Below are positions 1,147-55,637 of a DNA stretch of 64,000 bases, piece after piece. Within the stretch, counting starts at the first letter, position 1. Each line of letters starts with the position of its first letter. The position numbers and the translations under genes are program-made. The stretch is from Opitutales bacterium (GTDB lineage: Bacteria; Verrucomicrobiota; Verrucomicrobiia; Opitutales; UBA953): NCBI GenBank assembly GCA_017935025.1, contig JAGBIL010000013.1:1-64000 (forward strand). The letters run 5' to 3'. The notes below the pieces were generated by a model, which was not told the origin of the DNA, made no database searches, and was given only the letters and a program-made list of their open reading frames with translations.

Positions 1147-2625
1147 TTAGAATTTCCTGCGCAGATGTGCAGGGGGAATATTCATTATCGCCCGATACTT
1201 CGTAATTGTGCGACGGGCAATTTTTATGCCTCTTGCGGCAAGTTCCGCCACGAGTTTTTGGTCGCTAAGCGGCTTTTTCGGAGATTCTGCATCGAGAATT
1301 TCGCGTAAAACTTCGCGAACGCCGACATTGGCGAGCTCTTCGCCGTCATCCGTCTCTAATCCGGCGTTGAAAAAATGCCTCAGCTCAAATACGCCGTGAG
1401 GTGTTTCCGCGTATTTATTGGAAACGGCGCGGGAAACCGTCGTTTCGTGAACGCCGATTTCCTCCGCGACCGCCGCCATCGTCATCGGGCGCAGATACGC
1501 GGGACCGCGTTCCAGGAACTCGTTTTGTGCGGCGACGATGTATTCGCCGATTTGCTCAATCGTTTTCTGCCGTTGCTCAATCGCGTTGATCAAAAAACGC
1601 CCGGCGCGCATCTTTTCGGTAAAATACGCACGGTCTTTGCTCGAAATTTTTCCCTGCGCAATCAGCGTTTTGTAAAAACCGGAAATACGCAGTTTCGGAA
1701 CGTAGGCATTTTCCATACGCACACGCCAAACGTGTTTTTCCCGGTCGAAGTAAAACGTCATATCCGGCGAAACTTCCCGATTTTCGTCTGCGGAAAAATC
1801 CTCTGCGGGAACGCGTTTGAGCTTAGAGATTTCCGATATCGCCGCACGGATACTCTCTGCGGGAACGCCGTAGCGACGCGCGAGCACCGGAAATTTTCTC
1901 GCGAGAAAAAGTTCGTAATCCGCGTCGAGGATCCGGTACGCGAGCGACGTTTCCCGCCCTTGCCGCCTCAACTGGATCAGAAACGCCTCTCGCAAATCCC
2001 GCGCGCCGACACCGGGAGGATCAAAAGTCTGAAACGTGCGCAAAGCCCGCTCCACGTCCTCTACGGGAACGCCCTGTGCCTCCGCCAAAACGTTTGCGGA
2101 CACGTCCAAAAATCCGCGCTCGTCGATATTTTGCGCAATCGCCTTGAGCAAATCCGGGGAAACGTCCTCCTCGTCGCAAAGCGCGATTTGAGACTCCAGG
2201 AGCTGCGGCAAGGATTCTCTTTCCACGAGCGAATCAAACAAATACGCACGCCGCTCCTCATCGTCGCGCGTCCACGAATTTTGCGTTCCCGCGAAGCCGG
2301 AATCAATTTCGTCGTCCCATTTTTCGCCACCGGAAAATTCGTCCTCGTCTTTTTGCTCAGGCGGATTCAGCGCATCGCTTCCGAAATCCCCGCCGGAAAA
2401 ATCCTCGTCGTGGCGGGCACCGTCGCTTTCCGACGGCAAGATTTCGCCTGACTGTTGCGTTCCCGGAATTTCCTCCAAAAGCGGGTTTTTCGCCATTTCG
2501 TCGGAGATCTCGCGCGCAAGCTCAATCGCGGGAACCTGTAGGATTTTCAGCGCGTGCAAGACCTGCGGAGAAAGCACTTGCTCCTGCGAAATCTTCTGAT
2601 ACTGGCCAAACCCCAAATCCGGCAT
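1147..2625 (-). CDS. rpoN: RNA polymerase sigma-54 factor
   Basis: 492-aa sigma-54. Region I at the N-terminus is Gln/Leu-rich (QYQKISQEQVLSPQVLHALKILQ), followed by an acidic, disordered region II (about residues 45-125), the core-binding domain, an HTH around residues 380-405 (AAVAEEIGVHETTVSRAVSNK), and near the C-terminus the RpoN box ARRTITKYR that contacts the -24 promoter element. It directs RNA polymerase to -24/-12 promoters and needs AAA+ activators, none of which is in the window. ATG at 2625 gives the normal N-terminus. A terminator follows the gene. Confidence 0.97.
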   Translation of the reverse strand: MPDLGFGQYQKISQEQVLSPQVLHALKILQVPAIELAREISDEMAKNPLLEEIPGTQQSGEILPSESDGARHDEDFSGGDFGSDALNPPEQKDEDEFSGGEKWDDEIDSGFAGTQNSWTRDDEERRAYLFDSLVERESLPQLLESQIALCDEEDVSPDLLKAIAQNIDERGFLDVSANVLAEAQGVPVEDVERALRTFQTFDPPGVGARDLREAFLIQLRRQGRETSLAYRILDADYELFLARKFPVLARRYGVPAESIRAAISEISKLKRVPAEDFSADENREVSPDMTFYFDREKHVWRVRMENAYVPKLRISGFYKTLIAQGKISSKDRAYFTEKMRAGRFLINAIEQRQKTIEQIGEYIVAAQNEFLERGPAYLRPMTMAAVAEEIGVHETTVSRAVSNKYAETPHGVFELRHFFNAGLETDDGEELANVGVREVLREILDAESPKKPLSDQKLVAELAARGIKIARRTITKYRAIMNIPPAHLRRKF

Positions 2626-2668
2626 GAGTTCTGACTATAACGGCTAAATTTTGAGAATTCAATCGATG

Positions 2669-2703
2669 AAAAAAGCGGATCGGCACGCGCCCTCCGCTTT
2701 TTT
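2669..2703. terminator. Bidirectional terminator between plsX and rpoN
   Basis: Stem AAAAAAGCGGA (2669-2679) pairs with TCCGCTTTTTT (2693-2703), flanked by A- and T-runs, so it can work on both strands. On the minus strand it lies about 30 bp past the plsX stop and just before rpoN. Confidence 0.75.
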
Positions 2704-2732
2704 TTTGTTCAAAAATTCGAGAAAACCGAATT

Positions 2733-3800
2733 TTACAAACTTTCCTGAACCTCGGCGACAACGTCGTTCGCCGCAGCAAGCAATTCGGACGCTTTCCGGT
2801 TAATGTTTTTCGAGCAGGCATTGCGCGCCATCAGAATCGCCGCCGCCGTTCCGTGCTTGTTGCTCGAACCGTGAGCCTTAAACACCAAGCCGTTTAAACC
2901 GAGTAACGGAGCCCCGCCGAAGCGTTCCGGACGCACCTGCCGTTTCACCGCTTTCAGCAAAGGCAACAGCACAAGCCCCGCCGCGATGTAAATCGGATTG
3001 CGCTTTACTTTTTCCCCGATGAGGTCTTTCAACATATAAACCAGACCTTCAACGGTTTTGAGCAAAATATTACCGGTAAAACCGTCCGTAACGATAACGT
3101 CCGCATCACCCTGAAAAACGTCAAACCCTTCCACCGGTCCCGCGTATTCAAACCAATCAAAGTGTTCGTTCAGGGCCTTCAGATACGCGTTTGCGCGATT
3201 GATGCGCTCCCCGCCCTTGCCTTCTTCCGTTCCGACCGTGAGCAAGCCGACTTTCGGTTTTTCCGTGCCGAGAATCGAAATCGAATAAAGCGCACCGAGC
3301 ACGGTGTTGTGCACCAACTGCTCCGACGTGGTTTCCGGATTGGCTCCCACGTCCACGACAATAGAATAACCGGTCTTGCGCGGGAAAATAGCAGACAGCG
3401 CCGGGCGCTGCACCCCGGGCATCAAACGCACCTTCAGCGTTCCCGCGCCCACCAAAACTTTGGTGTTTCCCGTGGAGACGACGGCATCCGCTTCGCCCGC
3501 CTTCAACATTTCCAAAGCAACAATCATCGAAGAATGCTTCTTCGATTTCATCGCCTGCATCGGCTTGTCATCCATTTCAATGACATCCGGAGCATGGCGA
3601 ACCTCGATTCGGGCATCCCCGGCAATGCCGGCGGAACGCAAAAGCGGCCGGAGGATTTCTTCCTGCCCCACAAGAAACAACTTATCGCCCGCTCCCAATT
3701 CCTTGAGCGCGAGCGATACGGCCTGGACCACTTCTCCGGGACCCTTGTCGCCGCCCATGCAGTCAACTGCGATGCGGTATGTCTGAGTTACGGTTTCCAT
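2733..3800 (-). CDS. plsX: Phosphate acyltransferase PlsX
   Basis: 355-aa PlsX from ATG at 3800 (METVTQTYRIAVDCMGGDKGP). PlsX makes acyl-phosphate from acyl-ACP, the acyl donor for PlsY in phospholipid synthesis, as a peripheral cytoplasmic membrane enzyme. Family hallmarks are the N-terminal AVDCMGGD motif, HAPDVIEMDDKPMQAMKSKKHSSM (about 78-101), the VDVGAN segment and the VTDGFTGNILLKT motif. A TTG further upstream (3839) leaves the frame open, but the family normally starts close to the AVDxMGGD strand. It lies directly downstream of rpmF, the classic rpmF-plsX arrangement. Confidence 0.96.
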   Translation of the reverse strand: METVTQTYRIAVDCMGGDKGPGEVVQAVSLALKELGAGDKLFLVGQEEILRPLLRSAGIAGDARIEVRHAPDVIEMDDKPMQAMKSKKHSSMIVALEMLKAGEADAVVSTGNTKVLVGAGTLKVRLMPGVQRPALSAIFPRKTGYSIVVDVGANPETTSEQLVHNTVLGALYSISILGTEKPKVGLLTVGTEEGKGGERINRANAYLKALNEHFDWFEYAGPVEGFDVFQGDADVIVTDGFTGNILLKTVEGLVYMLKDLIGEKVKRNPIYIAAGLVLLPLLKAVKRQVRPERFGGAPLLGLNGLVFKAHGSSNKHGTAAAILMARNACSKNINRKASELLAAANDVVAEVQESL

Positions 3801-3869
3801 CTGAGCCGGAAGGCTACACCGTAAACGCCCCGAAGACAAACCTTTTCCGCCTAAGCGGACAGGTTCTGA

Positions 3870-4046
3870 TTAAAGATCGACCTCGACGACCTTGCGGCCG
3901 CGATACGTTCCCGTAGCCGGGTTGACGCGGTGAGGACGAATGACGGAGCCGTCCGAATCCTTAGCAAGGAGCGGCGCCTTAAACTGATTTGCCCCGCGGC
4001 GAAGAGCGCTGCGGCGTTTGGACTGTTTGCGTTTCGGTTGTCCCAT
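3870..4046 (-). CDS. rpmF: 50S ribosomal protein L32
   Basis: 58-aa basic protein beginning MGQPKRKQSKRRSALRRG and ending GRKVVEVDL. The start MxxPKRKxSKxRR and the central RPHRVNPATGTYRGRKV are typical of bL32. No zinc-binding cysteines are visible, so this is the Cys-free form. It lies 69 bp upstream of plsX on the same strand, as in many bacteria, which couples ribosome and lipid synthesis genes in one transcript. Confidence 0.95.
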   Translation of the reverse strand: MGQPKRKQSKRRSALRRGANQFKAPLLAKDSDGSVIRPHRVNPATGTYRGRKVVEVDL

Positions 4047-5087: not shown

Positions 5088-6188
5088 TTATCCGAGAATC
5101 TTCCGGATTTTCCCTTCCCGGGCTTCGACGCTTTCCGCCAGCTTAAGTTGGACCAACGCGCGCTTGAGATTGTGTTCTTTGTAGCGCGTTTTGAAGTAAA
5201 CGTCGCCGGCGAGATAGTCCGCAAAAAAGCGAATCCCGAGTTCGAGCGGCAAAATGCGAATCGCGTCGAACATATACTTGTGATCGTTTTCCGTGAAGAA
5301 ATCCTTCGCATACGTCATGTAGCCGGAATAAATCGCCGTGAAAAGCTCCGTATCGAAGAAAACGGAATGCAGGTCAATCGCATCTTCCCCGGCGGGATTG
5401 CAACAGGAACGCACGGCATCGCCGATGTCCGCGTGAACAAGTCCGGGCTGAATCGTATCCAAGTCAACAATACACGTTCCCTTTCCGGTTTTTTCGTCAA
5501 TGAGAATGTTCCCGACCTTCGGGTCGCCGTGCGTCGGACGCAGAGACAACTCACCGAGTTTTTTCGCATTTTCAAACGTGGAGCAAAATTCGCGGCGCGC
5601 TTCGATAAATTTCAGGCAATAACGCGCTTCTCGGGAATGTTCGAGCAATTCCTGCGCGAGCGGCGTTTTCAACGCTTCGTCCAACTGTGAGAGATAAATC
5701 GGCGTAATGTGAAAGCCTTCAATCGCGTAAGAAAGCTGATCGCAGGGAATATCGCTGATGAGTTTCTGGAAATGCCCGAGCACCATGCCGGATTCGTAAG
5801 CGTGGTCCGGAGACTGAACTTTTTCGTAGGAAACCGCCGATGCGATGTTGGAAATCGCGCGCCACAAATCGCCGTCGCCGTCGTAGTAAAAGTCCTGCCC
5901 GTCACGCGTCTGAATAATCTTCGGCAACTGCCAAATGCGGTCGGACGACATATTGACTTCTTCAAGTTTTTGGTGGCAAACGTCGGTCACGACACGCATA
6001 TTGCGCATAATGTTTTCCGGATTCGGGAAAACCGCGCGGCGCACGCGCTGAAGGATAAAGCGTTCCTCGGAAAACGTCGTGCGGAAGATGGCACGATAAG
6101 TGTCGTTGACGTTTCCGCTTCCGAAAGGTTCGACAGACACAAGATGTCCGGCAACGGAAAATTGCTTGGCAATAAGCGAGGCTCTCAT
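5088..6188 (-). CDS. Aminoglycoside-phosphotransferase-fold sugar kinase (NahK-like)
   Basis: 366 aa from ATG at 6188. Kinase-fold signs: a Gly-rich ATP loop at the N-terminus (EPFGSGNVNDTYR), a Brenner-type catalytic motif LRPTHGDPKVGNILID (HGD...N) at about residues 243-258, and the metal-binding IVDLDT about residues 264-269. This layout is that of the phosphotransferase family that includes N-acetylhexosamine 1-kinase, which phosphorylates GlcNAc/GalNAc at C1. Which sugar is used here cannot be read from sequence. It lies 33 bp upstream of the CvpA-like gene, same strand. Upstream in-frame TTG codons were rejected because the family starts near the SLIAKQF helix. Confidence 0.75.
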   Translation of the reverse strand: MRASLIAKQFSVAGHLVSVEPFGSGNVNDTYRAIFRTTFSEERFILQRVRRAVFPNPENIMRNMRVVTDVCHQKLEEVNMSSDRIWQLPKIIQTRDGQDFYYDGDGDLWRAISNIASAVSYEKVQSPDHAYESGMVLGHFQKLISDIPCDQLSYAIEGFHITPIYLSQLDEALKTPLAQELLEHSREARYCLKFIEARREFCSTFENAKKLGELSLRPTHGDPKVGNILIDEKTGKGTCIVDLDTIQPGLVHADIGDAVRSCCNPAGEDAIDLHSVFFDTELFTAIYSGYMTYAKDFFTENDHKYMFDAIRILPLELGIRFFADYLAGDVYFKTRYKEHNLKRALVQLKLAESVEAREGKIRKILG

Positions 6189-48324: not shown

Positions 48325-48924
48325 ATGGACGAGCAGGGGGATTTCGGATTTTTCGGGAGCGGCGTGGACGGCTCCGTCGCGGTAAACGCCAACGTGCGCG
48401 TTTCCGCTGCGGACCTTGCGCGCATGCTCGGCATCGAAACGGCAGACGTCGCACGCCTGGAACGGCACGGCATCACACAACGCACGGGACGCGGCGAATA
48501 CGTGTTGGAATCGAGCGTTCGCGGCTACGCCGACTACCTGCGCGGAAAAATCAGCGAAAAGCCGAAAGACCAACTCGATCTCGTTAAAACGGAAACCGCC
48601 AAAGTCGAACTCGAACAGCTTTTGGGAACACTCATCCGCAAGGAAGATGCGCTGATGAAAATCGCCGCAGTCATTACCGCCGCCCGGCGCGTACTCGAAT
48701 CCGTCGGCGTTCGCTTGGCACCGATAATCGCGGAAAAAACCGACATTCACGAAATACGCAATCTGATTGACCATGAAATTTTCAACGCCCTCGAAACCAT
48801 CGCTGACGCAAAAATTGACGCAGACGCGGGAACGGCTCCTGCGGGAGAACCGGACTCAATTTCTCCGGGAAATACAGGAACGCTTTCGCCCGATACGCCC
48901 TCTTTCGGTCAGCGATTGGGCTGA
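48325..48924 (+). CDS. Terminase small subunit (Nu1-like)
   Basis: 199 aa starting 3 bp after the clamp gene. N-terminal winged HTH of Nu1/excisionase type (RVSAADLARMLGIETADVARLERHGITQRTGRGEYVLESSVRGYADYL, about 26-72). A helical middle (75-145) follows with KTETAKVELEQLLGTLI, typical of these DNA-packaging proteins. Recognises the cos or pac site and recruits the large subunit. The large-subunit frame begins inside this gene. Confidence 0.8.
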   Translation: MDEQGDFGFFGSGVDGSVAVNANVRVSAADLARMLGIETADVARLERHGITQRTGRGEYVLESSVRGYADYLRGKISEKPKDQLDLVKTETAKVELEQLLGTLIRKEDALMKIAAVITAARRVLESVGVRLAPIIAEKTDIHEIRNLIDHEIFNALETIADAKIDADAGTAPAGEPDSISPGNTGTLSPDTPSFGQRLG

Positions 48925-50821
48925 TCGCTACCGCGTCCTTCCGGACGATTCCGCCATGAAAGGCGGGCGCTGGAGCACGGCGTTTACGCCTTACCTGCGC
49001 GACATCATGAACAGTTTTCTCGACAACGCCATCGAGGAAACCGTCGTGCTCAAATCCGCACAGGTCGGCTTTTCCGAAGCCCTCGTCAACATCATCCTCT
49101 ACGTCATTTACTACGGCGCGGGATCGATCCTGCACGTTCATCCGAAAGAAGATGCCGCCCGAAAATTTTCTCTGAAACGCCTCATGCCCAGCCTCGCCCG
49201 CGAGGAATTTTTCGGAAAAATCGCTCCCGCAAAATCCCGTGATTCCGGAAACACGATTCTTTCCAAGCGCTTCGTAGGCGGCGACTACATCGCCGTCGGC
49301 GCCAACTCTCCGGACAACTTAGCTTCCAACCCCGTCCCGTTCGGCCTGCTGGACGAATACGACCGCATCGCCCAAAGCTCCGGACGCGAAGGCGCACCGC
49401 TCGAACTCGTAAAAAAACGCACCACCACCTTTTGGAATCGCAAAATTTTCGTCGGATCCACGCCGACGGATAAAGCCACCTCCAACATCATGCGCGAGTG
49501 GGATTTGTCCGACAAACGCCGCTACTTCATCCCCTGCGCCGGTTGCGGCGAATTGTGGACGCCAACGTTCCCGGACATCGTTTGGAAAAACGACGCGCGC
49601 GGGCATCCCGTTTTTGAATCCGCACGCCTGCGTTGCCCGCGTTGCGGCCGGCTCCACACCAACGTCGAGAAAAACGAGCAAGTCCGCGACCCGCGTTCCC
49701 GCTGGATTCCTACCGCAGAGTTCAAAGGCAAAGCCGGCTTTCACATCAATCAAATCCTTTCGCCGTTTACCGCCGCCGGATTGAGCGAAATCGTCAAAAG
49801 CTACACCGAAAGCAAAGGCGACCCGCTCAAAATGCAGGTATTCGTCAACACCGTGCTCGGCGAAGCCTGGGAAGATGCCGCCGAAAAACTCGATGCCAAC
49901 GCGCTCGCCCTGCGAGCCGAAGATTGGCAGGGGCACGAAGTGCCGCGCCGCGCACTCGTGCTTACCGTCGGCGCGGACACGCAACCGGACCGCATCGAAG
50001 CCGAGTGCGTCGCCTGGGGCGCAGGCGAAGAATCGTGGAGCATCGAATATCGCGTCATTTTCGGAGATCCGACCATTCCCGAAGGCTCGCCCGGTTCTCC
50101 GTGGGACTCGTTCACGGCATTTTGCCGAAAATCCTACCGGCACGAAAGCGGCGTTCGCGTTACCGCACGGCGTAAATTTATCGACTCCGGCGGCTCAAAC
50201 ACAATTGACGTTTACAAATACGCAGCCGCACACCGCTGGGAAAACGTTTTCGCCATCAAAGGCGCAAACACGCACGACGCGCCGATTGTCGGTGCCGTGC
50301 AACGCCGCCGCATCGGCGAACGCAAAACGCGCGGCGTCAAATTCGTCATCGTCGGTACACACAAAATCAAAGACATCGTTGTCGGCCGCTTCGGCATCGA
50401 CACGCCCGGAAACGGCTACTGCCACTTCCCGATAGGACGCGGGAACGAGTGGTTCGAGCAACTCACGAGCGAACACAAAATCGTAAAATACGAAAAAGGA
50501 CGTGCAAAAATCGAATGGATCAAGGATGCGGAAAAACGCAACGAAGCCCTCGACTGCCGCGTTTACGCCTTTGCGGCGCTACGTCTCGATTCTCCGGACT
50601 GGCAACGCGAAGCCTATTTGCTCAAACAACGAGCGGAAACCGAGTCCGGAGAAAACGCAGTTGTTAAGGAATCCTTAACAACTGAAACCGGGAACGATGA
50701 AATTCCCGCCGTGCGAAAAATTCCCGAACGCGTTCCCGCAACCGTTCCCGAGCAACCGGACAAACCGGCAAAACCCGCCTCCGTCCTTTCCCGCCTTTCC
50801 GCCCTGCGCCGCAGACGGTGA
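48773..50821 (+). CDS. Terminase large subunit (GpA family)
   Basis: 682 aa from ATG at 48773, giving a 152-bp overlap with the small subunit; a later start would cut little from the conserved part. GpA-type ATPase: RPLSVSDWADRYRVL, Walker A variant LKSAQVGFSE (about 97-106), Walker B FGLLDEYDRI (about 190-199), motif III VGSTPTD. A Cys4 zinc-like segment follows (CAGCGELW ... CPRCGRLH). The C-terminal RuvC-type nuclease shows VGADTQPDRIEAECVAW and FIDSGGSNTIDVYKY. Packages DNA into the prohead. Confidence 0.93.
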   Translation: MKFSTPSKPSLTQKLTQTRERLLRENRTQFLREIQERFRPIRPLSVSDWADRYRVLPDDSAMKGGRWSTAFTPYLRDIMNSFLDNAIEETVVLKSAQVGFSEALVNIILYVIYYGAGSILHVHPKEDAARKFSLKRLMPSLAREEFFGKIAPAKSRDSGNTILSKRFVGGDYIAVGANSPDNLASNPVPFGLLDEYDRIAQSSGREGAPLELVKKRTTTFWNRKIFVGSTPTDKATSNIMREWDLSDKRRYFIPCAGCGELWTPTFPDIVWKNDARGHPVFESARLRCPRCGRLHTNVEKNEQVRDPRSRWIPTAEFKGKAGFHINQILSPFTAAGLSEIVKSYTESKGDPLKMQVFVNTVLGEAWEDAAEKLDANALALRAEDWQGHEVPRRALVLTVGADTQPDRIEAECVAWGAGEESWSIEYRVIFGDPTIPEGSPGSPWDSFTAFCRKSYRHESGVRVTARRKFIDSGGSNTIDVYKYAAAHRWENVFAIKGANTHDAPIVGAVQRRRIGERKTRGVKFVIVGTHKIKDIVVGRFGIDTPGNGYCHFPIGRGNEWFEQLTSEHKIVKYEKGRAKIEWIKDAEKRNEALDCRVYAFAALRLDSPDWQREAYLLKQRAETESGENAVVKESLTTETGNDEIPAVRKIPERVPATVPEQPDKPAKPASVLSRLSALRRRR

Positions 50822-50831
50822 TGCGGAGAAA

Positions 50832-51395
50832 TTATTTTTGAAAAAAGAATTTTGAGTTTGCGGAAACAACGGGAATGTCAACATCGACAAAATCCCCGTC
50901 ATCGGTAACAAGCGTATAGTCGTGCTTTCTGCACGCTTCCACAATCGCCGCATCATTAAAATCAATCTTTCCGGAAAGAAATGCGTCCAGACACGCCTCA
51001 ATTCCCGCGCGGCTTGCGGTTTCGCTCCCGTCTTCAAAAGAAATCACGTTAGAACACGCCAAAATTCCCCTTGCGGCGATTACGGCCGTTTTCGCCGTCA
51101 TCGCGAATTCCGCAGATGCCCGAAAAATCTTATAATCCGGAAAGTCGCTGAAATAATTGCTTTTCCAATCGTCCCGGCAAAACCGATTTATAAATTCGCT
51201 GATTACGGACAAGCTCGTTCCGAGTTTTGCACGGACGTTCTTATCTAATGCGCGTCCTAGCAACTTACTGTAAACGCGGAACTTTTTATCTTCAAAAGGG
51301 CTCGGCCCGTGAAGCTTCAACCAAATATTCGTATCAATGAAAAGCCTGTCATCCCCTGTCGGGAAAAAATTCTCTGCAAAAGATCGCTTAGGCAT
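50832..51395 (-). CDS. PIN-domain protein in counter-oriented cargo operon
   Basis: 187 aa. PIN fold acids are visible: RLFIDTNIW (first Asp, about 20), SVISEFINRF (Glu, about 65), and C-terminal DFNDAAIVEACRKHDYTLVTDDGDF (Asp pairs). PIN domains are Mg-dependent RNases, often toxins. It is the last gene of a three-gene minus-strand operon and overlaps the STAS-like gene by 8 bp. No classic antitoxin (RHH, AbrB or Phd) is beside it, so control by the ATPase/STAS pair is a possibility. Confidence 0.85.
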   Translation of the reverse strand: MPKRSFAENFFPTGDDRLFIDTNIWLKLHGPSPFEDKKFRVYSKLLGRALDKNVRAKLGTSLSVISEFINRFCRDDWKSNYFSDFPDYKIFRASAEFAMTAKTAVIAARGILACSNVISFEDGSETASRAGIEACLDAFLSGKIDFNDAAIVEACRKHDYTLVTDDGDFVDVDIPVVSANSKFFFQK

Positions 51396-51708
51396 TTTTA
51401 GCGTTTGCGTAAAATTTTACGGCGTTTTCGATTACACGCTCGATGAGCGCACGATCCGTTTGCGTGGTATCCGTAAAAAGGATTTCGGAGCGAATTTTTT
51501 CCGCAGGGTATTTCGCACAAAGTTTTCCGATTGCCGTATTCAAAAACGCGGTAACAACAAGCTGTAACTGTGCGAAAGAAAGCTCCACGCGTGTTCCCGC
51601 TGCAAGAGCCTCATCTAAAATCGCATAAATCTTCTCGGCATCATCACCGTCAACGCAGTGAAATCCCTCGATAGTGTCGCAAATAGAAATCTTAAGGAGC
51701 GAGCTCAT
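51388..51708 (-). CDS. STAS-like domain protein (DUF4325 type)
   Basis: 106 aa. The segment ELSFAQLQLVVTAFLNTAIGKLCAKYP (about 42-68) is characteristic of the STAS-like DUF4325 family: predicted strand, then FLNxAIGxL helix. These small proteins are usually encoded beside an ATP-binding GHKL protein, as here. The relation recalls anti-anti-sigma/anti-sigma pairs (SpoIIAA/SpoIIAB), but that is analogy. AAGGAG precedes the ATG. Confidence 0.8.
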   Translation of the reverse strand: MSSLLKISICDTIEGFHCVDGDDAEKIYAILDEALAAGTRVELSFAQLQLVVTAFLNTAIGKLCAKYPAEKIRSEILFTDTTQTDRALIERVIENAVKFYANAKNA

Positions 51709-51769
51709 AAAAAATTTCTTTCAGTCTAAGACCTTACAAAGCCGCTTTTCAAGGCAAAGATACGTCCTC

Positions 51770-52621
51770 TTATGTCAAAACTGTCGTGGCGAGCGTATTT
51801 ATCTCAATATTTACACACGTTCCCGGAAAGGGATTTTCAAGCGATTCCGATTTCGTTTTGCCGTTTACCCTGCGAACGAACGCTTTTCCGGACACGATGA
51901 TAAGTTTGCCGTAAGTAGCGTCTATAAAATCGCGAACGATTTTCAAACCGAGCCCGCCCGGAGCCGCATGCGAATCGGACACCCGTGTCGTATTGCTTTC
52001 GCTCATCGCCCAAACGACGGCATCGCTGTCGTCAATTTCCGTATTAAGAAATAGGCGAACGTTTTCCGGAATACCAATACCACAATCCGAAATCGCAAAA
52101 TCGACACGTCCGTCGCGCGGGAAAAACTGCCCGCAAGAGGCAACCGATGCATTCGTTTTTGCGTGAACGGAGCTGTTTTGGAAAATTTCATTTACACTCT
52201 CAAAAAAGTTTTCAGGCAGGTTTCCGCAACGCTTTCGAACAAAAAACTCTTTGAATTTTCCCGTGGAATATTCGGCAAAACCGCGTGTTTCCGTCGGCCG
52301 AAATCTTACAAACGGAATCGTTGTCCCATTCACATCCGGCACACGCTGTAATCTAATTATTTCCGCGAAACCGTTTTTTTGGAATACAGTCATGATATCG
52401 TCTCGGATTCCGCCGACGGAAACACTTTTCATTTCGAGGAAAAATCGTGCGATTACGGAATAAAGCGGCGCGCACATATTTGCGTCAAACCAATGGCATC
52501 GGGAAAAATCCAAAATAATTTCTCCACCGAGCTTTTCACTCTTACCGATGGCGTAAAGCTCCGCAAGCGCAGAAAACCCTCTTAGATCCGTGCAAACTTC
52601 CCAGGGAAACAAGTATCGCAT
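51770..52621 (-). CDS. GHKL ATPase with N-terminal STAS-like half
   Basis: 283 aa from ATG at 52621. The N-terminal part (about 10-115) looks STAS-like (GGEIILDFSRCHWFDANMCAPLYSVIARFF). The C-terminal part is a GHKL/HATPase domain: N-box NEIFQNSSVHA (about 164-174), G1 ISDCGIGIPENV, G2 GGLGLKIVRDFI (about 241-252). No His phospho-acceptor helix, so not a classic sensor kinase; more like an RsbW/SpoIIAB switch. First gene of the PIN/STAS/ATPase operon, divergent from the tail sheath gene (117-bp gap). Confidence 0.85.
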   Translation of the reverse strand: MRYLFPWEVCTDLRGFSALAELYAIGKSEKLGGEIILDFSRCHWFDANMCAPLYSVIARFFLEMKSVSVGGIRDDIMTVFQKNGFAEIIRLQRVPDVNGTTIPFVRFRPTETRGFAEYSTGKFKEFFVRKRCGNLPENFFESVNEIFQNSSVHAKTNASVASCGQFFPRDGRVDFAISDCGIGIPENVRLFLNTEIDDSDAVVWAMSESNTTRVSDSHAAPGGLGLKIVRDFIDATYGKLIIVSGKAFVRRVNGKTKSESLENPFPGTCVNIEINTLATTVLT

Positions 52622-52738
52622 GCCCGTGAGAATACTCGTTTTTAACACCTTGAGAAACGCATTTTTTTTTTCAAAAAAAGGAGGGGGGACATAGCGTGGC
52701 GAGTTTTTTCGGCGTTTTGTCGTAAACTGTGCTCCGTC

Positions 52739-53872
52739 ATGAGTTACAACCACGGAGTCAAAATTAACGAGGTCGATACGGGCGCACAGGCAGTGCGTAC
52801 GGTTAATTCCTCAATCATCGGAATCATCGGCACCGCCGCCGACGCAGACGCGGACACGTTCCCGCTCAATATGCCCGTCATGGTCGCCGGTTCGCGCAGT
52901 AAAGCCGCAAAGCTCGGCGAAGCGGGAACGCTCCCGCAGGCGCTCAACCACATCTTCAACCAATGCGGCGCACAAGTCGTCGTCATTCGCGTCGAAGATG
53001 CGGGAACGGATGCCGCCGACCAAACACAGGCAAACGTTATCAAAGGCGCGGAAGAGCTTTTGAAAGCCGAAGCCGCCACAGGCTACACGCCGCGCATTCT
53101 CATCGCGCCGGGCTTTACCCACGAAAAACCGGTCGCCGACAAACTCGTCGAAATCGCCGAAAAGCTTAAAGCCGTCGTTTTCGCCGACTGTCCGGATACA
53201 ACGCAGGAAGATGCGTTCAAATACAAGGAAGATTTCGGCAGCGACCGACTCATGCTCATTTTCCCGAACGCGATGTATTTTGACGTCAACCAAGCGGGAA
53301 CGGCAAGCACACCGGCTTCCCCGCTTGCCGCCGGCTTGCAGGTCAAAGTCGATTCCGAAAAAGGCTTTTGGTGGACGCTCTCCAATCAAACCCTTTCCGG
53401 CATCACGGGAACAACGACGCTCATTGATTTCCGCAACGGCGACTCGACCTGCGCGGCAAACATGCTTAACGAAAAGCAAATCTCGACGATTATCCGCCGC
53501 GACGGTTTCCGTTTTTGGGGTTCGCGCACCTGCGCAAGCGGCTCGACGTTCGCATTCCTGCCCGTGCGCCGCACAAGCGACATGATCAATCTCTCCATTC
53601 AGGACGCATGCCTTGAATTTGTGGACCGCCCGATTTGCAAAGCGACGCTCGATGCCGTTGTCGATACCGTCAACGCCTACCTGCGCACGCTCGTTTCACA
53701 AGGCGCAATCCTCGGCGGCGAATGCTGGGTGGACGAAAACGACAACCCCGCAAGCAAACTCCAACAGGGCAAAGTCCGTTTTGCCTACAAATTCACGCCA
53801 CCCGCTCCGATGGAAGACGTACAGTTCGATTCCGCAACTGTCACGGACTACTACGACGCCGTTTTTAACTAA
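52739..53872 (+). CDS. Tail sheath protein (P2 FI-like)
   Basis: 377 aa. N-terminus MSYNHGVKINEVDTGAQAVRTVNSSIIGIIGTA and the body with VVVIRVEDAG and LMLIFPNA are typical of the P2-like sheath. The C-terminal sheath domain runs GFRFWGSRTCAS ... FLPVRRTSDMINLSIQDACLEFVDRPI, ending in the extended arm that links sheath subunits. Polymerises around the tube and contracts on infection. Followed by the tube gene, as in P2. Confidence 0.92.
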   Translation: MSYNHGVKINEVDTGAQAVRTVNSSIIGIIGTAADADADTFPLNMPVMVAGSRSKAAKLGEAGTLPQALNHIFNQCGAQVVVIRVEDAGTDAADQTQANVIKGAEELLKAEAATGYTPRILIAPGFTHEKPVADKLVEIAEKLKAVVFADCPDTTQEDAFKYKEDFGSDRLMLIFPNAMYFDVNQAGTASTPASPLAAGLQVKVDSEKGFWWTLSNQTLSGITGTTTLIDFRNGDSTCAANMLNEKQISTIIRRDGFRFWGSRTCASGSTFAFLPVRRTSDMINLSIQDACLEFVDRPICKATLDAVVDTVNAYLRTLVSQGAILGGECWVDENDNPASKLQQGKVRFAYKFTPPAPMEDVQFDSATVTDYYDAVFN

Positions 53873-54955: not shown

Positions 54956-55062
54956 TCCTCGCGGACGCTACCGGCTGGCAACCGAGCGAGATTTCCGATT
55001 TGGACGTTTCCGATTTCGTCAACTACCTGCTCTTAATCAAAGAGGCTCGGGAACGTAATTAG
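54919..55062 (+). other. Programmed -1 frameshift site and E' extension
   Basis: GGGTTTT at 54919-54925 is in the canonical X-XXY-YYZ register of the gpE frame (54919 is a third codon position). A -1 slip there continues in a frame that stays open for 45 codons to TAG at 55060-55062: SATELRRGYLILADATGWQPSE ... LLLIKEARERN, here split to show only the ends. The fusion is 130 residues, near the size of P2 E+E'. The extension has the helical TGWQPSEISDL pattern of gpE' proteins. Confidence 0.8.
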
Positions 55063-55604
55063 GAAAACAACCAAATGATCCCTGCAATTTTGGCAATAGT
55101 AAGAAGTTCGTCGATACTTTTGTTTCTGACGATGATTTCCTGCGGCGGCGATTTTTTTTCGAGCACATCGAACGAATCGTCGGTGAGTTCTTCGTCAATT
55201 TCCGAAACGGAAGCGCACGCAGAATCCGAAACATCAATCTCGTTCGGCTTTTTGTCGCACTCGTCAACAGTCTCCGGCTGTTTTTCCGAAAAGTCGGAAA
55301 CGGCTTCTTTTTTCGAATCAGAAGGAATGCCGAAACGTATTTCATCCGGATATTTCAAAAAGAGAAACATCACTTTCACGCCGTACCACACAGTTACGAG
55401 CAAGAAAAAGCACGCAACAATCATGGACAACGCGAGCCCGTCTTCCGAATCAACGGCATCAAAGGCACACGCGCACGCAATTGCCGGAAAGATTAGAAAA
55501 AACGAAATAAAGCCGCGCAAGGATGCCTTGGCGAACCGGGTAAACAGTTCGGTCGCATGCTCCTTTCGTGTTTTCGCAATGTCATCCATGAGCGAAATTC
55601 TCAT
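55059..55604 (-). CDS. Counter-oriented two-helix membrane protein
   Basis: 181 aa from ATG at 55604. Two membrane helices (about 32-52 and 63-87) and a long acidic cytoplasmic tail (about 105-165, many Glu, Asp, Ser). No family recognised. It lies between the tail chaperone and tape measure on the opposite strand, overlapping the E' stop by 4 bp, so it is likely a cargo (moron) gene. A frame on the plus strand (55075-55614) is Ser-rich and looks like its mirror; I favour the minus frame, without certainty. Confidence 0.5.
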   Translation of the reverse strand: MRISLMDDIAKTRKEHATELFTRFAKASLRGFISFFLIFPAIACACAFDAVDSEDGLALSMIVACFFLLVTVWYGVKVMFLFLKYPDEIRFGIPSDSKKEAVSDFSEKQPETVDECDKKPNEIDVSDSACASVSEIDEELTDDSFDVLEKKSPPQEIIVRNKSIDELLTIAKIAGIIWLFS

Positions 55605-55637
55605 GTGTAAATAAATTTTTTTCAAGGAATTTTGATT

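Follow-up and report, generated by a model that had tools for sequence, protein, structure and literature searches.

Between the terminase and tail sheath genes of a prophage from an Opitutales bacterium lie three genes on the opposite strand, which raise the question of whether they form a functional unit and what such a unit might do. The window, by which we mean the whole 64,000-nucleotide stretch of DNA that was analyzed, was originally predicted to encode a STAS-GHKL ATPase, a DUF4325 STAS-like protein and a PIN nuclease at this location. The coordinates and the Pfam and PHROGs matches agree with that prediction, and three minus-strand ORFs encoding a kinase, a STAS-like protein and a PIN protein are confirmed at 50832-52621.

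The features of the locus are as follows, with gene names that anticipate the identification argued below.

48767-50821, plus strand: terminase large subunit (TerL), left neighbor (phrog_15, 1e-206)
50822-52652, no strand: cargo slot between the terminase large subunit and the tail sheath (from alignment with L105 of genome G388, and GC content)
50832-51395, minus strand: vapC, PIN-domain RNase toxin, 187 aa (Pfam PIN, homology to 9z7o_C)
51388-51708, minus strand: vapS, DUF4325 STAS-like antitoxin, 106 aa (Pfam DUF4325, homology to 9z7o_A)
51770-52621, minus strand: vapK, STAS and GHKL kinase, 283 aa (ATG at 52621)
52739-53872, plus strand: tail sheath, right neighbor (phrog_23, 8e-110)

Identity of the three genes

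The element carrying the trio is a myophage-type prophage, with tail, tape measure, portal and baseplate genes beyond the tail sheath. The vapS and vapC coding regions overlap by 8 bp, and the operon has a GC content of 45.8%, compared with 57.5% for the terminase gene and 56.4% for the sheath gene. A simple consensus scan upstream of the kinase gene revealed no sigma-70-like promoter, and the original suggestion that the trio is expressed in the lysogen is not supported. A 27-base inverted repeat at 50658-50684, near the 3' end of the terminase gene, lies downstream of vapC on the vapC strand and may be a terminator of the operon. Further along, among the tail genes, there is a second minus-strand ORF (55059-55625, 188 aa) with hydrophobic stretches and no match in Pfam or PADLOC; it is possibly another cargo gene.

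VapK matches Pfam HATPase_c at 4.9e-4, which is below the curated cut-off for that family, and belongs to phrog_3364 (2e-39), listed in PHROGs as of unknown function. Its N-terminal part has a profile match to the RsbS-type STAS domain. The AlphaFold2 model (pLDDT 87) is closest in fold to SpoIIAB among PDB structures and begins at the STAS-like part, with no N-terminal HTH. In an alignment of 86 sequences the protein keeps N149 of the essentially invariant N box, D179, G181, G183 and the GGLGL motif. VapS matches DUF4325 (1.4e-11) and is a member of phrog_9989, also of unknown function in PHROGs. Its AlphaFold2 model (pLDDT 88.5) has a STAS-like alpha/beta fold in which T53 begins a helix, and it closes with one long helix that reaches residue 105; there is no wHTH. 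A Foldseek search with this model gave weak matches only, RsbS among them. VapC matches Pfam PIN (7e-9) and, weakly, the NCBIfam VapC toxin model TIGR00028. It keeps D21, N23, E67, D145, D148, D166 and D168, and the PIN acidic residues are nearly invariant across the 86 aligned sequences.

Profiles built from the window protein and two relatives were compared with the PDB. The VapS profile matches chain A of 9z7o, an Escherichia VapS, at 4.5e-19 (next match 0.3), and the VapC profile matches chain C of the same structure, the Escherichia VapC, at 4.6e-13 (next match 0.54). These two chains are the sole significant PDB sequence matches of the window VapS and VapC, with identities in alignment of approximately 27% and 22%, respectively. 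T53 of the window VapS aligns with S48 of the Escherichia protein in a column that holds Ser in 62 and Thr in 24 of 86 sequences, and it is the putative phospho-acceptor. Similarly, D21 of the window VapC aligns with D28.

The structure 9z7o is the VapS2-VapC2 complex of VapKSC, a system described by Chambers et al. (EMBO J, June 2026; PMC13373217), who found 289 such operons and tested one from Escherichia sp. E4736. The genes are ordered kinase-STAS-PIN, with no HTH in VapK and no wHTH in VapS. The Escherichia VapC is toxic by way of D28 and is neutralized by VapS, and the operon protects E. coli approximately 100-fold against phage Bas42. Neutralization is abolished either by deletion of VapS residues 94-116 or by the phosphomimic S48E, which also loses binding to VapC. 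Activation of VapK by single-stranded DNA and an RNA target for VapC were inferred by those authors (PMC13373217). The original prediction did not know the trio as a described system and is superseded on this point. However, the mechanism it guessed is close to the published one. Its proposal of a GHKL/STAS partner-switching pair controlling a PIN RNase in a mobile, defense-like module appears well supported by the published relative, in which the corresponding proteins are kinase, antitoxin and toxin (PMC13373217). What is new here is the shortened tail of VapS and a sister prophage with a different cassette in the same slot.

Given the gene order, the homology of both small proteins to the solved chains and the retention of key residues, the trio is very probably a prophage-carried vapKSC operon, that is, a three-gene toxin-antitoxin or abortive-infection module. 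Among the features that mark membership, we find the gene order, the VapS and VapC homology, a kinase without HTH, the Ser/Thr site and the PIN catalytic residues. The inhibitory tail, residues 94-116 of the Escherichia VapS, is mostly missing.

By analogy with the published system, VapS would bind and block VapC under ordinary conditions. VapK would sense single-stranded DNA that results from damage or belongs to an infecting phage and, once activated, would phosphorylate VapS on its conserved Ser/Thr, in the window presumably T53. Phosphorylated VapS would then release VapC, which would cut RNA through a catalytic site predicted to include D21, and growth would stop. For the sensing step, F54 of the Escherichia VapK is the putative aromatic ssDNA-contact residue, equivalent to W68 of CapK (PMC13373217). 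The column of W44 in the window VapK (W in 62 and F in 12 of 86 sequences) may be this position.

Conservation of the trio

On its own terms, the original prediction would have been refuted by a trio confined to this phage, but the trio is conserved far more widely. A genome scan with a four-row kinase alignment identified 76 loci in many phyla, 74 of which extend at least 800 bp downstream of the kinase and were used to count gene order. The same two genes follow the kinase in the same order in 73 of these 74; only L096, itself a weak match, departs from this. A chance grouping of the genes is excluded by this recurrence of three families in one order, both on phages and plasmids and in genomes from many phyla.

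Viral contigs gave no match to the single-protein queries P0001 and P0003 or to three-row kinase or STAS alignments; relatives in these contigs were found with a PIN alignment. Each viral relative of the PIN protein that tblastn confirmed is preceded by the same kinase and STAS genes. The trio is also present on the phage contig MT837343 from human faeces, on plasmid P5 of Deinococcus gobiensis, and in Streptococcus phage Javan172, in which a VapC-like PIN ORF (5155-5676) lies behind annotated kinase and STAS genes. The Javan172 record annotates only a short hypothetical ORF at this position. The kinase and STAS pair occurs without the PIN gene in some streptococcal phages and in one Hymenobacter plasmid.

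A tree of 89 kinases places the trio kinases on one side of a branch with support of 100/97. The window kinase is inside this clade, but it forms a long branch and its exact place there is unsure. The clade spans many bacterial phyla, along with one contig binned as archaeal, and includes phages, plasmids and other contigs. Additionally, the pairwise distances of VapK, VapS and VapC correlate with r of 0.86-0.92, far above permutations. VapKSC is known so far from one tested operon; the survey shows a single kinase clade with near-constant gene order across many phyla.

Within the Verrucomicrobiota the trio is sporadic, occurring in 4 of 388 genomes searched with a three-row PIN profile, and most DUF4325 genes in the phylum are not part of one (approximately 6 of 26 are). 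One locus from the same phylum, L014, is identical to L041 (Verrucomicrobia bacterium) over the compared stretch. Two others, also from Verrucomicrobiota, contain single ORFs (L110, 508-1764, and L115, 502-1761) to which the kinase profile and the DUF4325 profile both match, resembling a fusion of the kinase with its substrate. At L101 (genome G083, 2560-3994) a vapS-vapC pair with the Escherichia-like PIN type has pieces of a kinase upstream, possibly a broken vapK.

The shortened tail of VapS

The window VapS has 10 residues past the last conserved alanine, A96, compared with 17-39 residues in the other 85 sequences, the tails of which usually have an acidic end. The protein ends near the position of residue 101 of 116 in the Escherichia VapS, about 15 residues early. 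The tail is needed for neutralization in the Escherichia system, but it is not stated as a criterion of the VapKSC family (PMC13373217). With the tail cut to 10 residues the antitoxin may not work as published, and neutralization would either proceed through the STAS surface or be weakened.

L014, whose VapS has a complete tail, appears to have the same 8-bp overlap of vapS and vapC. This makes an in-frame deletion within the gene a likelier cause of the short tail than a moved or new stop codon. A programmed frameshift that would extend VapS was considered and dropped, as inspection by eye found no classical slippery heptamer at the end of vapS. The short tail may reflect decay, rewiring or an assembly error.

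The first two of these would make the window operon a decaying or rewired copy whose antitoxin tail was removed by an in-frame deletion. Such an operon could be silent, could be tolerated at low expression, or could persist as no more than a weak toxin that VapS restrains through docking alone. This concerns the state of the copy in the window and not its family membership. The tail length, 10 residues against 17-39 in 85 relatives, and the apparently internal position of the loss both favor such a reading. In addition, VapS carries atypical residues at 7 of 18 columns that are well conserved in the family, the tied second-highest count among the 86 sequences, compared with 1 of 20 conserved columns for VapC. 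However, none of the three reading frames is interrupted, no checked catalytic residue of VapC or VapK has been lost, and a broken antitoxin beside an intact toxin should be counter-selected if expressed. We regard a decayed or rewired copy as possible but somewhat unlikely.

A working vapKSC operon with a tail-less antitoxin would be one in which VapS holds VapC by the STAS surface alone and phosphorylation of T53 is the sole release step. We consider this form doubtful. If it does exist, some lineages can do without the inhibitory tail, and neutralization is possible by docking that does not reach the active site. The shortened VapS is a naturally occurring test of the way in which VapS restrains VapC.

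Cargo slot and comparison with known systems

A related prophage was identified in a genome of the same genus (G388, locus L105), with a sheath 81% identical to that in the window. The DNA alignment between the two ends at the terminase stop codon and restarts at window position 52653, just upstream of the sheath gene. In the sister prophage this slot (3385-5403 of L105, 43.8% GC) holds an AAA_21/OLD-like ATPase and a second ORF on the other strand. The ATPase, P0007, has weak PADLOC matches to HEC-02A, NsnB, Old and AriA. The second ORF, P0008, has no family match; an ECK sequence seen by eye could be part of a PD-(D/E)xK-like motif. No further sister prophage was found in the sampled part of the order. 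With vapKSC in the window and an unrelated OLD/AAA_21 cassette in the sister, the same junction has taken up two defense-like cassettes, which suggests that it is a site for defense cargo. Two different cassettes at one junction also fit the original view of the trio as prophage-borne cargo. The slot is a place to seek further prophage defense genes in Verrucomicrobiota.

The window operon shares with the Escherichia VapKSC its order of genes, the Ser/Thr phospho-site, the PIN active-site residues and the lack of HTH and wHTH domains. It differs in that VapS mostly lacks the tail and in its location in a prophage late-gene slot.

CapK and CapS are similar to the window pair in that a STAS-GHKL kinase targets a conserved residue of a STAS protein, and CapKS is located upstream of immune operons (PMC13373217). 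With the same kinase and STAS folds in the window, the first two genes might be a regulator pair of this type that controls expression rather than VapC activity, next to an unrelated PIN toxin. However, the window proteins have neither the N-terminal HTH of CapK nor the C-terminal wHTH of CapS, which represses transcription (PMC13373217). The same PIN family follows 73 of 74 related kinases, and VapS and VapC match a solved VapS-VapC complex. We therefore reject a CapKS-type pair as very improbable. That a classical VapBC pair lies by chance beside a GHKL/STAS pair is hardly credible: the PIN protein does match Pfam PIN and, weakly, TIGR00028, but no VapB-type gene lies between or beside the genes, the gene adjoining and overlapping vapC encodes a DUF4325 protein, and the trio recurs as a unit.

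The vapKSC operon nevertheless resembles VapBC in that a PIN RNase toxin is held by an adjacent antitoxin. The antitoxin in the trio is a STAS protein instead of the DNA-binding protein VapB, and release would occur by phosphorylation instead of proteolysis. The likeness to SpoIIAB and SpoIIAA lies in the fold of VapK and in the position of T53, at a helix start like the SpoIIAA serine; that to RsbW, RsbV, RsbS and RsbT lies in the RsbS-like N-terminal part of VapK. In contrast to both of these partner-switching systems, the trio includes no sigma factor or anti-sigma target, and its output is a nuclease.
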